A stretch of 64,000 nt of DNA from Pseudonocardia sp. T1-2H (GTDB lineage Bacteria; Actinomycetota; Actinomycetes; Mycobacteriales; Pseudonocardiaceae), in the NCBI RefSeq assembly GCF_038039215.1, contig NZ_JBBPCL010000001.1:5270001-5334000 (forward strand), given 5' to 3'. Below, piece by piece: positions 2,131-31,936 of the stretch. The position numbers and the translations under genes were made by a program. The notes under the pieces were generated by a model. The model did no database searches and was not told the DNA's origin. It saw only the letters and a program-made list of their open reading frames with translations. How positions within the stretch are numbered: position 1 is the first letter of the stretch; each line of letters starts with the position of its first letter.

Positions 2131-2284
2131 CGAGTCAGGCCCGGCAACCGCGCGAGTCGCGGCCCGAGGCCCCGCGAGTCGCGACCTGAGGCCCCGCGAG
2201 TCGCGCTCTGGCGCCGCACGAGTCGCGCTCTGGCGCCGCACGAGTCGTGCTCTGGGGCCGCACGAGTCGCGGCCTGAAGCCCGC
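2131..2284 (+). repeat. Array A: seven units of a 22-bp tandem repeat beginning CGAGTC
   Basis: CGAGTC recurs at 2131, 2153, 2175, 2197, 2219, 2241 and 2263, an exact 22-base spacing throughout. A typical unit reads CGAGTCGCG followed by a CTCTGGCGCCGCA-like remainder. The array lies in the 5' intergenic space of the acyltransferase operon and has no convincing reading frame of its own. Period and core match array B at 2543-2737, which lies in the opposite orientation. There are no unique spacers, so this is not CRISPR. Confidence 0.9.
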
Positions 2285-2339
2285 CGGTCGCGGCATCCCG
2301 TGGCAGGGCCACCGGCCGGCGGCCACCGGCACCTATTGG

Positions 2340-2402
2340 TGATCGCGATCTCGGGAGCGGCGGCGACGTCTCACGTCGCTTCCGCTCCCAGATTCGTGAT
2401 CA
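2340..2402. repeat. Long imperfect inverted repeat (about 30-bp arms, 3-nt loop)
   Basis: Arms at 2340-2369 and 2373-2402 pair in 23 of 30 positions. The inner part GCGACGT/ACGTCGC and the middle GGGAGCGG/CCGCTCCC are perfect, and both outer ends are TGATC. The hairpin lies between the two oppositely oriented 22-bp arrays. No terminator U-tract follows on either strand. Confidence 0.75.
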
Positions 2403-2542
2403 AGGCGCTGTGCAAGGCGCACGATCACAGCCCGACGACTACCCGCGGCGACAGGGCTTGGCCGTCCCCTTTCACGAACATCCCCGCCCGGCCCGCGAGG
2501 AGCTCTCCTGCCGGTCGGGCGCCGCGCCCGCAGGAACACAGC

Positions 2543-2737
2543 GACTCGCTGACGGAACCGCCCGACTCGCTGACGGAAACCCCGACTCGCGCGGTCTGGG
2601 ATCCCGACTCGCGCGGTCTGGGATCCCGACTCGCGCGGTCGGAGATCCCGACTCGCGCGGTCGGAGATCCCGACTCGCGCGGTCGGAGATCCCGACTCGC
2701 GCGGTCGGAGATCCCGACTCGCGGGGCGGAAACGCGA
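2543..2737 (-). repeat. Array B: inverted copy of the 22-bp tandem repeat
   Basis: GACTCG recurs at 2543, 2564, 2584, 2606, 2628, 2650, 2672, 2694 and 2716. The last seven starts have exact 22-base spacing and the first two intervals are 21 and 20 bases. Read on the minus strand the unit is CGAGTCGGGATC followed by TCCGACCGCG or CCAGACCGCG, clearly related to array A. Positions 2584-2715 are nearly identical units, which suggests recent expansion. Confidence 0.9.
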
Positions 2738-2741
2738 CGGC

Positions 2742-2772
2742 GGCCCCGCACCCCCTCGGAGGGTGCGGGGCC
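2742..2772 (-). terminator. Hairpin terminator downstream of etfBA
   Basis: Perfect 12-bp arms GGCCCCGCACCC (2742-2753) and GGGTGCGGGGCC (2761-2772) enclose a 7-nt loop. It lies 19 bases past the etfA stop on the minus strand. No U-tract follows, as is usual for GC-rich actinobacterial terminators. Confidence 0.72.
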
Positions 2773-2791
2773 GTCGTGGGCGTGCGCGAGG

Positions 2792-3742
2792 TCAGCTCCT
2801 GCGCTTCGCGACCTCGTCCTTGAGCTGCGGCGCGACCTTGAACAGGTCACCCACCACACCGAAGTCCGCGATCTCGAAGATCGGGGCCTCGGTGTCCTTG
2901 TTCACCGCGATGATCGTCTTCGACGTCTGCATCCCGGCCCGGTGCTGGATCGCACCGGAGATCCCGAGCGCGATGTAGAGCTGCGGGGACACCGTCTTGC
3001 CGGTCTGCCCGACCTGGAACTGGTGCGGGTAGTAGCCCGAGTCCACCGCCGCGCGGGACGCGCCGACCGCGGCACCGAGGGAGTCCGCCAGCGCCTCGAC
3101 GACGGTGAAGTCGTCCGCCGACCCGACGCCACGGCCACCGGAGACGATGACCGAGGCCTCGGTCAGGTCCGGGCGGTCGCCCTGGGTCACCGGCTCCCGC
3201 GAGGTCACCGTCGCCGAGCGGCCGGACGCGGCCGGGATCTCGACGGTCTCCTCCGCCGCGGCACCCTCGGCGTTCTCCACCTCCACCGAACCCGGACGCA
3301 GCGTGATCACCGGGTGCGCGGTGTTCGCCTTGGCCTCGGCGATGAACGCCCCACCGAACACCGAGTGCGTCGCGCTCGGGCCCTCGCCGACCGCGACGAC
3401 GTCACCCAGCAGCGCCGAGTCCGTGCGCACGGCCAGCCGCCCGGCGATCTCCTTGCCGTCGGCGGACACGCCGATCAGGACCGCCACCGGGTCCTTGGAC
3501 TCGACGAGCGAGGCCAGCACCGACACCTGCGGGGTGAGGAAGTCGGTGGAGTCGGTCTCCGCGACGTAGACCTTGGCCGCGCCGTGCGCCTTCAGGCCGT
3601 CGGCCAGCTTCCCGGCGGTGCCGGCCGGGCCGACCACCACCGCGGACGGCTCACCCAGCGCGCGGGCCGCGGTCAGCAGCTCGAACGTGCTCTTCTTGTT
3701 CTCCCCGTCGACGTGATCGACGAGGACCAGAACCTCAGCCAT
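2792..3742 (-). CDS. etfA: Electron transfer flavoprotein subunit alpha
   Basis: The 316-residue EtfA/FixB subunit binds FAD and passes electrons from acyl-CoA dehydrogenases toward the quinone pool. The N-terminus MAEVLVLVDHVDGENKKST is typical. The C-terminal FAD domain has VIVSGGRGVGS, SRAAVDSGYYPH, QVGQTGKTVSPQLYI and the GISGAIQHRAGM segment, ending with IADFGVVGDLFKVAPQL. Full family length. It lies 30 bases downstream of etfB with an AAGGAAA ribosome-binding site, so the two form one operon. Corresponds to M. tuberculosis fixB (Rv3028c). Confidence 0.97.
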   Translation of the reverse strand: MAEVLVLVDHVDGENKKSTFELLTAARALGEPSAVVVGPAGTAGKLADGLKAHGAAKVYVAETDSTDFLTPQVSVLASLVESKDPVAVLIGVSADGKEIAGRLAVRTDSALLGDVVAVGEGPSATHSVFGGAFIAEAKANTAHPVITLRPGSVEVENAEGAAAEETVEIPAASGRSATVTSREPVTQGDRPDLTEASVIVSGGRGVGSADDFTVVEALADSLGAAVGASRAAVDSGYYPHQFQVGQTGKTVSPQLYIALGISGAIQHRAGMQTSKTIIAVNKDTEAPIFEIADFGVVGDLFKVAPQLKDEVAKRRS

Positions 3743-29798: not shown

Positions 29799-31087
29799 GT
29801 GCGGGTGCTGATGGTGACGTGGGAGTACCCCCGGTGGTCGTCGGCGGGCTTGGCCGGCACGTGCACGCCCTGGCCCGCGAGCTGACGGCGGCCGGGCACG
29901 AGGTCGTCGTCCTGTCCCGGCAGCCGGCCGGCAGCGACGCCGGCACCCACCCGACCGCCGACGCCGCGGTCGACGGGATCCGGGTGCTGCGCGCCGCCGA
30001 GGACCCCGCCCACCTCGAGTTCGGCCGGGACATGGTGGCCTGGACGCTCGCGATGGGGCACGGCATGGTCCGCGCGGCGCTGACCCGGCTCGGGACCTGG
30101 CGCCCGGACGTCGTGCACGCCCACGACTGGCTCGCCGCGCACGCCGCCGTCACCCTCGCGGACGTCGCCGGCGTGCCGCTCGTCGCCACGATCCACGCGA
30201 CGGAGGCCGGGCGGCACGCGGGCTGGCTGTCCGCGCCGCTCAACCGGCAGGTGCACTCCGTGGAGTGGTGGCTCGCCAACCGGGCGGACACCGTGATCAC
30301 GTGCTCGGAGGCGATGCGGGGCGAGGTGGCCACGCTGTTCGACCTCGATCCCGCGCGGGTCGCCGTCGTCCACAACGGCATCGACGCCCGCGGCTGGCGG
30401 ATCCGGAAGGACCGTGCGGCCGCGGTGCGCGCCGCCTACGCACCCCACGGCAACCCCCTGCTGATGTACCTGGGCCGGCTCGAGTACGAGAAGGGCGTGC
30501 AGGACCTGATCGCCGCGCTCCCCCGGATCCGACGAGACCATCCGGGCACGCGGCTGCTCGTCGCCGGCACCGGGACGCAGCGGGAGTTCCTGCTCGCCGA
30601 GGCACGGCGGCACCGGGTGCGACGCAGCGTCGACTTCCTCGGCCACCTCCCGGACCGGGACCTGTCCGGGCTGCTCGTCGCGGCCGATGCGGTGGTGCTG
30701 CCGAGCCGCTACGAGCCGTTCGGGATCGTCGCGCTGGAGGCGGCCGCCGCCGGGGCACGGATCGTCGCGTCGACAGCGGGCGGGCTGGGCGAGATCGTGG
30801 TCGACGGCGAGACGGGGCTGTCGTTCGCCCCCGCGGACGTCCCGGGGCTCGCCGCCGCGGTGGGCCGCGCCCTCGACGACCCGGCCGCGGGAGCCGTCCG
30901 CGCCCGCGCCGCCCGGGCCCGGCTCGCGCGGGACTTCGACTGGGGGCAGATCGCCGCCCGGACCGCTGAGGCCTACGCCGCGGCGCCGAACGGGGGCCCG
31001 CAGGACCTGCCCCGCCCCAAGATCCCCACGGGCAACGTCCTCGACACCCCCGCGAGTCGCGCTCCCGGGCCTACCGAGTCGGGGTGA
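29799..31087 (+). CDS. GT4 alpha-1,4-glucosyltransferase (Rv3032-like), frameshifted near the start
   Basis: Glycogen-synthase-like GT4 enzyme of about 430 residues. The N-terminus MRVLMVTWEYP lies in one frame, and PVVVGGLGRHVHALARELTA onward in the -1 frame. The break is a run of five C at 29828-29832; six would restore the WEYPPVVVGGLGRHV opening of this family. Further motifs are VHAHDWLAAHA, LGRLEYEKGVQDLIAALPR, and the E-x7-E motif within PFGIVALEAAAAGARIV. The GTG at 29799 is preferred over the ATG at 29790 because AGGA sits eight bases upstream. The last residues are encoded inside two 22-bp repeat units. It probably elongates methylglucose lipopolysaccharide or glycogen chains. Confidence 0.8.
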
Positions 31088-31182
31088 GCGGCGGTCCGTC
31101 CGCCGCTTGAGTGGCTCAAGCGCCAGCGACGCCGCTCGAGCCACTCAAGTGGCGGGAGGCGCGCCCACAGACCCCGACTCGG
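31053..31182. repeat. 22-bp repeat pair and nested inverted repeats between convergent genes
   Basis: CGAGTC occurs at 31053 and 31075, again 22 bases apart, inside the end of the glucosyltransferase gene. CCGAGTCGGGG (31074-31084) is matched by its inverse CCCCGACTCGG (31172-31182). Inside this, CTTGAGTGGCTC (31106-31117) pairs perfectly with GAGCCACTCAAG (31138-31149). The nested structure fills the gap between two convergent stops and probably acts as a bidirectional terminator built from the repeat family at 2131-2737. Confidence 0.75.
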
Positions 31183-31186
31183 GGGG

Positions 31187-31936
31187 TCAGGTGCGGTGGA
31201 GGCGCTCCTCGACCGCGACCCGGTGCTTGCGCGCCATGTCCGCGATCGCCGCGCGGCGTTCCGCGTCCGCCTCGTAGTCCGCGAGCCGGTTGCGGACCAC
31301 CCTGGCCGGCGCCCCGACGGCGATCGAGTACTCCGGGATGTCCCCGCGCACCACGGCATGCGCACCGAGCACCGAGCCCCGGCCGACCCGGGCTCCCCGC
31401 AGCACCGTCACCTTCGCGCCGATCCACGTGTCCGGCCCGATCCGCACCGGCGACTTCACGATCCCCTGGTCCTTGATCGGCACGTGGACGTCCGCGGTGA
31501 CGTGGTCGAAGTCCGTCACGTACACCCAGTCCGCGACGATCGAGGCCGCGCCGATCTCGACGTCGAGGTAGCAGTTCACCGTGTTGTCCTTGCCGAAGAC
31601 GACCTTGTCCCCGATCCGCAGCGACCCCTCGTGGCAGCGCAGCGAGTTGCCGTCGCCGATGTGCACCCAGCGGCCGATCTCCAGCCGGCCGTACCCGGGC
31701 CGGGCGTGCAGCTCGACGCGGCGGCCGAGGAACACCATGCCGTTGAGGATCACGTGCGGGTTCGCGGCCCGGAACCGCAGCAGCCGCCAGTAGCGGACGA
31801 GGTACCAGGGGGTCCAGGCCCGGTGCCGCAGGACCCACCGCAGCGAGGCCAAGGTGAGGAAGCGGGCCTGCCGCGGATGGCGGCCGCCGTCCGGCCGGAG
31901 CCGTTCGCGCAGCGGCGAGCCCCACATCGTCGTCAT
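31187..31936 (-). CDS. Left-handed beta-helix (hexapeptide) acyltransferase (Rv3034c-like)
   Basis: Protein of 249 residues with a hexapeptide-repeat acyltransferase fold. Successive rungs include LEIGRWVHIGDGNSLRCHEG, LRIGDKVVFGKDNTVNCYLD, VRIGPDTWIGAKVTVLRGAR and GRGSVLGAHAVVRGDIPEYS, and it ends with IAVGAPARVVRNRL. VTDFDHVTADVHVPIKDQ carries the histidine expected in the active site of maltose/galactoside O-acetyltransferases. Context next to the Rv3032-like gene matches Rv3034c, proposed to acylate methylglucose lipopolysaccharide. It could also supply the missing N-acetylation step of the Wbp-like operon. Start ATG at 31936. Confidence 0.87.
   Translation of the reverse strand: MTTMWGSPLRERLRPDGGRHPRQARFLTLASLRWVLRHRAWTPWYLVRYWRLLRFRAANPHVILNGMVFLGRRVELHARPGYGRLEIGRWVHIGDGNSLRCHEGSLRIGDKVVFGKDNTVNCYLDVEIGAASIVADWVYVTDFDHVTADVHVPIKDQGIVKSPVRIGPDTWIGAKVTVLRGARVGRGSVLGAHAVVRGDIPEYSIAVGAPARVVRNRLADYEADAERRAAIADMARKHRVAVEERLHRT

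Follow-up and report, generated by a model that had tools for sequence, protein, structure and literature searches.

Dispersed arrays of a 22-bp CGAGTC repeat at gene ends in Pseudonocardia: putative sites of a cooperative DNA-binding protein

RESULTS

Two inverted repeat arrays between etfA and a GNAT acetyltransferase gene

The window analyzed here is a stretch of 64,000 nucleotides from the soil bacterium Pseudonocardia sp. T1-2H (contig NZ_JBBPCL010000001.1, 5,270,001 to 5,334,000), and positions are given in window coordinates, with genes placed by a simple gene finder. Two inverted arrays occupy the gap between etfA, encoding electron transfer flavoprotein alpha (2792..3742, minus strand; best match of the product in Pseudonocardia, P. 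oroxyli, 89%), and a GNAT acetyltransferase gene (PF13444; 1291..2055, minus strand). Array A (2131..2268, plus strand) adjoins the GNAT gene and holds seven CGAGTC cores, starting at 2131, 2153, 2175, 2197, 2219, 2241, and 2263, so that every step is 22 bp. Array B (2543..2721, minus strand) adjoins etfA and holds nine cores, read as GACTCG, with steps of 21 and 20 followed by six of 22. The seven exactly spaced cores and the nine inverted, mostly 22-spaced cores described in the initial annotation of this DNA were thus recovered, and both arrays were called by Tandem Repeats Finder. The pair pattern CGAGTC-N16-CGAGTC occurs 13 times in the window (12 times inside the two arrays), against a mean of 0.05 and a maximum of 1 in 100 shuffled windows. 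The outer edge of array A, where CCCG directly precedes the first CGAGTC, faces the GNAT gene start at a distance of 75 bp; between the outer edge of array B and the etfA 3′ end, which it faces, there are 70 bp. A GC-rich inverted repeat behind etfA (2742..2775, minus strand) looks terminator-like by eye, and array B starts beyond it.

A second, small element (31053-31181) sits between convergent genes. Its left end (31053..31080, plus strand), with two cores 22 bp apart, supplies the last codons and the stop of a glycosyltransferase reading frame (29834-31087), and its right end (31176..31181, minus strand) is a single core that leaves 5 bp to the end of the gene at 31187-31936 (minus strand). 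Rfam gave no match in the window.

Between arrays A and B lies the imperfect hairpin that had been annotated there (2340..2401), and DNA folding of 2335-2405 bore it out, at -27.3 kcal/mol compared with -12.07 (standard deviation, 2.17) in 200 shuffles (z = -7.02). Another locus of the family (L027:2879-2941) has a counterpart with a 78% match over 63 bases, also near an array. To judge from these sequences, the hairpin is probably a separate repeat, distinct from the array family. The interiors of eight paired arrays had only short matches in common, and the hairpin is therefore not part of a common architecture.

The repeat unit and the forms of the arrays

The core, CGAGTC(G), is palindromic apart from its central base and repeats every 22 bp. 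The consensus of 21 genomes, equally weighted, is CGAGTCGngCgtTCcgGnCcCG. Among 392 distances between same-strand neighbors, 369 are 22 and 9 are 21, in a set of cores preselected for a same-strand neighbor at 20 to 24 bp, a selection that raises the share of 22. Core and 22-bp step are kept across species and genera; the 16-bp linkers differ between species and are alike within one genome. In the genera read, the outer edge is again frequently CCCG followed by CGAGTC. Arrays occur solo, tail to tail, and head to head. In the nearest relative found (G055; EtfA identity, 94%), a 29-base end with two cores is present in 77 copies; 36 copies are exact, and many are arranged as inverted pairs. Eight small inverted pairs in G055 span 82 to 180 bp between outer cores, and in eight of nine an outer edge lies no more than 9 bp from a predicted gene end.

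The near-palindromic part of the unit is confined to the seven-base core. Across 94 distinct units, 11 of 12 column pairs showed no hairpin covariation above expectation, the exception being pair 2-16 (66 of 94 versus 56.4 expected); a local RNA hairpin in the unit was rejected on this basis. An A/T wave of period 11 had an amplitude of 0.104 in the 21 genomes, below that of several other periods. At one locus of another genome (L165, G102), some arrays keep an exact step of 21 bp next to 22-bp arrays.

A dispersed family with patchy distribution

The initial annotation had proposed looking for 22-spaced CGAGTC cores throughout the genome and in its relatives, and a large dispersed family emerged. 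The 7.0-Mb source genome holds 260 matches to the pair pattern (127 plus 133 on the two strands), compared with 2 plus 0 for a reversed-pattern control; the own-genome stretches used below were drawn from the first 100 of these matches, leaving out two isolated ones. Absence from related genomes, which had been named as counting against the annotation, was not what we found: 36 of 59 other Pseudonocardia genomes have 13 to 374 matches, with 1 to 9 in a further 11 and none in 12 (reversed control, a maximum of 18, in G031, and no more than 7 in the rest of the genus). In the other families of the order, each of 40 genomes has 0 to 3 matches. A three-core requirement left matches in 35 of 297 genomes of the family, spread over 9 of the 46 genera sampled and patchy within genera. 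In a class-wide sample, 6 of 296 genomes matched; the sole array-rich one besides the source genome (G652; 39 plus 26) belongs to another family, and at four of six loci examined there (L294-L299) an array edge comes to within about 5 bp of where a predicted gene ends. The G652 arrays may reflect transfer or independent origin. An assembly artifact is unlikely to account for arrays A and B, since the corresponding gap of G055 also contains arrays and the family is present in many other assemblies.

The core itself drifts, reading CGAGTT at 18 of 520 neighboring positions. In G184 (L300-L306), step-22 arrays have cores drifted to GAGTT or GAGTGTC and keep the linker part AACGCTCAG. Zero CGAGTC matches are therefore no proof of absence. 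The pair pattern was found in none of 80 stretches around relatives of etfA. A BLAST search of plasmids with the low-complexity filter on gave no match to array B, and a phage origin was rejected after 17 viral-contig stretches, inspected by eye, looked like unrelated short repeats, most in DNA below 60% GC.

Outer array edges often lie at gene 3′ ends

Placement was evaluated for the window, L009-L028, and L164-L203, leaving out arrays inside predicted genes. Among outer edges facing a gene 3′ end, 26 of 53 lie within 12 bp of it, compared with 12.0 under random placement (0 of 2,000 trials gave as many), while only 3 of 30 inner edges do so (3.9 expected). No edge facing a gene start (0 of 45) lies within 25 bp. 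The 64 array-bearing gaps, from 21 own-genome stretches and 40 stretches of other genera, are enriched in convergent gaps (24 of 64, versus 26 of 236 gaps without arrays; P = 4.7e-6) and depleted in divergent ones (5 of 64 versus 80 of 236; P = 1.6e-5). Selection alone could explain the avoidance of gene starts; it does not so explain the difference between outer and inner edges. Many arrays are far from any gene end. At 57 loci (L147-L203), seven protein families recur beside arrays in 3 to 5 loci each and none is singled out; no candidate binding protein recurs there.

Sites are shared between close species and linkers differ

G055 has arrays in the same etfA-GNAT gap, with the GNAT-side edge at the same base as in the window and a different linker; the gap is array-free in 12 other relatives inspected. 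Repeats of other kinds also occur behind etfA: about 440 bp of an unrelated repeat (AAGATCGGCG ... CGATCATG) fills this gap at L122 (G031) and L124 (G025), and in Pseudonocardia lacus (L039) the etfA stop is followed by inverted repeats GTCTTCG/CGAAGAC at steps of about 18 to 22 by eye. When 11 loci of the source genome were compared with G055, three (L012, L015, and L023) were array-free there, one (L013) had single cores only, and the other seven carried arrays, mostly with different unit numbers. Eight stretches of a further genome, G052 (one cut by a contig end), held no array, and this genome has 292 matches elsewhere.

At eight sites shared by the source genome (G000) and G055, window included, linker identity averaged 0.44 between genomes; within each genome, identity to other loci was 0.64 and 0.57. 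The low cross-genome value is due to five sites (0.25 to 0.41); L011, L028, and the window (0.59 to 0.63) depart from the pattern because G055 holds two linker types. The simplest reading of these sequences is that linkers have been replaced at sites of unchanged position. The active turnover that the initial annotation suggested from the near-identical units of array B agrees with the differing unit numbers and linkers at orthologous sites of close species.

Gaps at inverted junctions tend to follow the helical repeat

Were the cores read by a protein from one side of the helix, inverted junctions would be expected to respect the helix too. Among the matches listed, 98 distinct head-to-head junctions from four genomes with gaps of 0 to 30 bp (omitting G016, G010, and part of G000, with one nested row dropped, and including one junction with identical letters on two contigs, a possible duplicate) have 55 gaps at 10 to 16, 40 at 21 to 26, 3 below 10, and none at 17 to 20. 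The 61 tail-to-tail junctions with gaps of 18 to 48 bp among the matches listed, about half of all, fall at 18 to 21, 24 to 30, 35 to 39, and 46 to 48, leaving 22 to 23, 31 to 34, and 40 to 45 empty. A joint zero-phase fit gave 10.4 bp per turn with the site center 0.5 bp off the middle base, a score reached by none of 300 uniform controls. Hidden cores occur in 12 of the 61 tail-to-tail rows and in 1 of 37 long head-to-head loops. Refitting with the true innermost gaps or with the 12 rows dropped gave 10.4 and 10.45 bp per turn, respectively, and the result also holds after removal of these rows together with the possible duplicate; with innermost gaps, a few values of 5 to 7 and 14 to 17 appear, and 22 to 23, 31 to 34, and 40 to 45 are still empty. 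The grid is not perfect: fitted separately, head-to-head gaps are best at 12.05 and tail-to-tail gaps at 9.7; members of the short head-to-head class mostly miss two turns by 1 to 3 bp on the low side, and a class with 24 bp between centers, present in G129, falls between turns. G018 supplies 61 of the 98 head-to-head junctions.

Core centers thus tend to lie whole helical turns apart in any orientation. The claim that a 22-bp period keeps each core on nearly the same helix face gains independent backing from these junction classes, which fit one 10.4-bp grid. The spacing of the classes by about one turn suggests a cooperative protein that reads one DNA face. Alternatively, the classes could be loop lengths inherited from a few masters. 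Some related copies occur among the long head-to-head loops of G241 (5 of 120 pairs above the shuffled 99th percentile, 1.2 expected, with 16 of 25 loops used) and G004 (1 of 15). In G018 (4 of 253, 2.5 expected) and G007 (1 of 28 pairs, with 0.3 expected), most long loops are unrelated in sequence.

DISCUSSION

A cooperative DNA-binding protein and its rivals

The explanation we favor, with slightly better than even confidence, is that the arrays form a dispersed, noncoding, BIME-like family of putative sites for a cooperative DNA-binding protein. A dimer would bind each core, and adjacent dimers would touch along one helix face; these contacts would fix the spacing and leave the linker free to drift. 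A block of protein behind a stop codon might then mark an end-of-gene boundary, halting read-through or absorbing supercoils between convergent genes, a role that placement hints at faintly. New copies would spread by a route that does not need RAYT transposases. A more ambitious version, which we regard as doubtful, is a chromosomal boundary system of the Pseudonocardiaceae in which a sequence-specific architectural protein lies along one face of 22-bp arrays behind genes, and protein and core persist across genera while the DNA between cores is continually rewritten without RAYT. If true, this would be the equivalent, in bacteria, of satellite arrays bound by a dedicated protein.

Tn7 and Mu ends carry arrays of 22-bp sites. 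The arrays could likewise be transposase sites in the inverted ends of a selfish mobile element, with MITEs moved by some enzyme and phasing required for the two ends of a very small element to pair. The many inverted pairs built from the 77 copies of one end in G055 fit this picture, as does an etfA gap filled in G000 and G055 and array-free in the 12 other relatives. We nevertheless hold it to be unlikely: target duplication was not visible by eye at nine small G055 pairs, although no close empty site was at hand for comparison, the eight paired arrays have no common interior, and the only sequence common to 12 larger G055 pairs is that of the end and the unit, with no shared gene and no transposase. 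The many solo arrays and head-to-head forms, and linkers replaced while sites stay unchanged, also speak against transposition. Still less probable is an element acting at the RNA level, in which inverted arrays would form hairpins behind stop codons and either terminate transcription in both directions or form mRNA 3′ ends. Complementarity within inverted pairs and their location between convergent genes are in its favor, yet the unit lacks covariation for a local hairpin (one of 12 column pairs above expectation), solo arrays have no partner, Rfam found nothing in the window, and RNA hairpins by themselves give no reason for loop lengths to fall into helical classes.

Two further readings do without a dedicated protein. 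Gyrase sites of the BIME-2 kind, with arrays serving gyrase wrapping between convergent genes, appear very improbable to us. Passages of PMC6379681 describe a gyrase motif with phased 10-bp G/C variation and sites clustered downstream of transcribed units. The 3′ placement of our arrays fits, yet the period-11 A/T wave is not dominant in the unit across the 21 genomes. Gyrase is not known to need a six-base core kept as strictly as that found here. Neutral satellites, arising by slippage and chance dispersal in tolerated DNA, would explain unit numbers that vary between close species and the near-identical units of array B; they would not explain a core kept while linkers change, junction gaps quantized although loops are mostly unrelated, or outer and inner edges that differ at gene ends, and we give this reading hardly any credence.

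No published description of a 22-bp CGAGTC repeat was found in the literature covered, which left most subscription journals and preprints outside. One table row of PMC12306157 matched the search terms; that row names neither Pseudonocardia nor Amycolatopsis. Molecular drive can be read with ease from these bacterial arrays: the number of sites in a genome ranges from scores to hundreds, and core and helical spacing are kept where the intervening DNA is replaced. For pull-down experiments, the 22-bp unit could serve directly as bait. Were a protein found, actinobacteria would gain a sequence-defined gene-end or nucleoid factor, and it would become apparent whether RAYT transposases are dispensable for the origin of BIME-like elements.

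Comparison with known repeat systems

A CRISPR array is ruled out by the six-base core and by linkers that are alike within a genome. Iterons and cooperative operator arrays likewise consist of direct repeats about two helical turns apart; the iteron-type reading offered initially is not supported, however, because the Pseudonocardia arrays are scattered over many chromosomal gene ends beside ordinary genes rather than at one origin or operator. MITEs and the ends of Tn7 and Mu resemble the arrays in having inverted ends with repeated 22-bp sites, and the near-identical small copies in G055 have terminal inverted repeats as MITEs do. Solo and head-to-head arrays occur as well, in contrast to MITEs, and target duplication is not visible by eye in G055; no autonomous relative with a transposase and the same ends was seen among the 12 larger G055 pairs or beside the 57 loci. 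The gyrase sites of BIME-2, as far as the passages on them describe, are similar in their intergenic clusters and 3′ placement and differ in that the Pseudonocardia unit has no clear 10- to 11-bp composition wave.

Closest in arrangement are the REP/BIME sequences, which passages of PMC2817692 and PMC1525189 describe as dispersed, extragenic, and high in copy number, occurring in inverted pairs and clusters with unrelated inter-repeat segments, and located at convergent gene ends. The Pseudonocardia arrays are also extragenic and dispersed, in inverted pairs or clusters at convergent gene ends. They differ in a tandem 22-bp step without hairpin covariation, in a helical grid shared across inverted junctions, and in the lack of RAYT: PF01797 is absent from the source genome (0 hits) and occurs in 5 of 60 Pseudonocardia genomes, including G003 with 4 array matches and G015 with none. 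A RAYT route was rejected on these grounds, the domain being missing from the source genome and not tied to array copy number. By the tests made, the family is not a RAYT-borne REP, yet it resembles BIMEs in placement and turnover. With cooperative DNA-binding arrays it shares putative sites that lie, deviations from the grid aside, on one helical face in any orientation.
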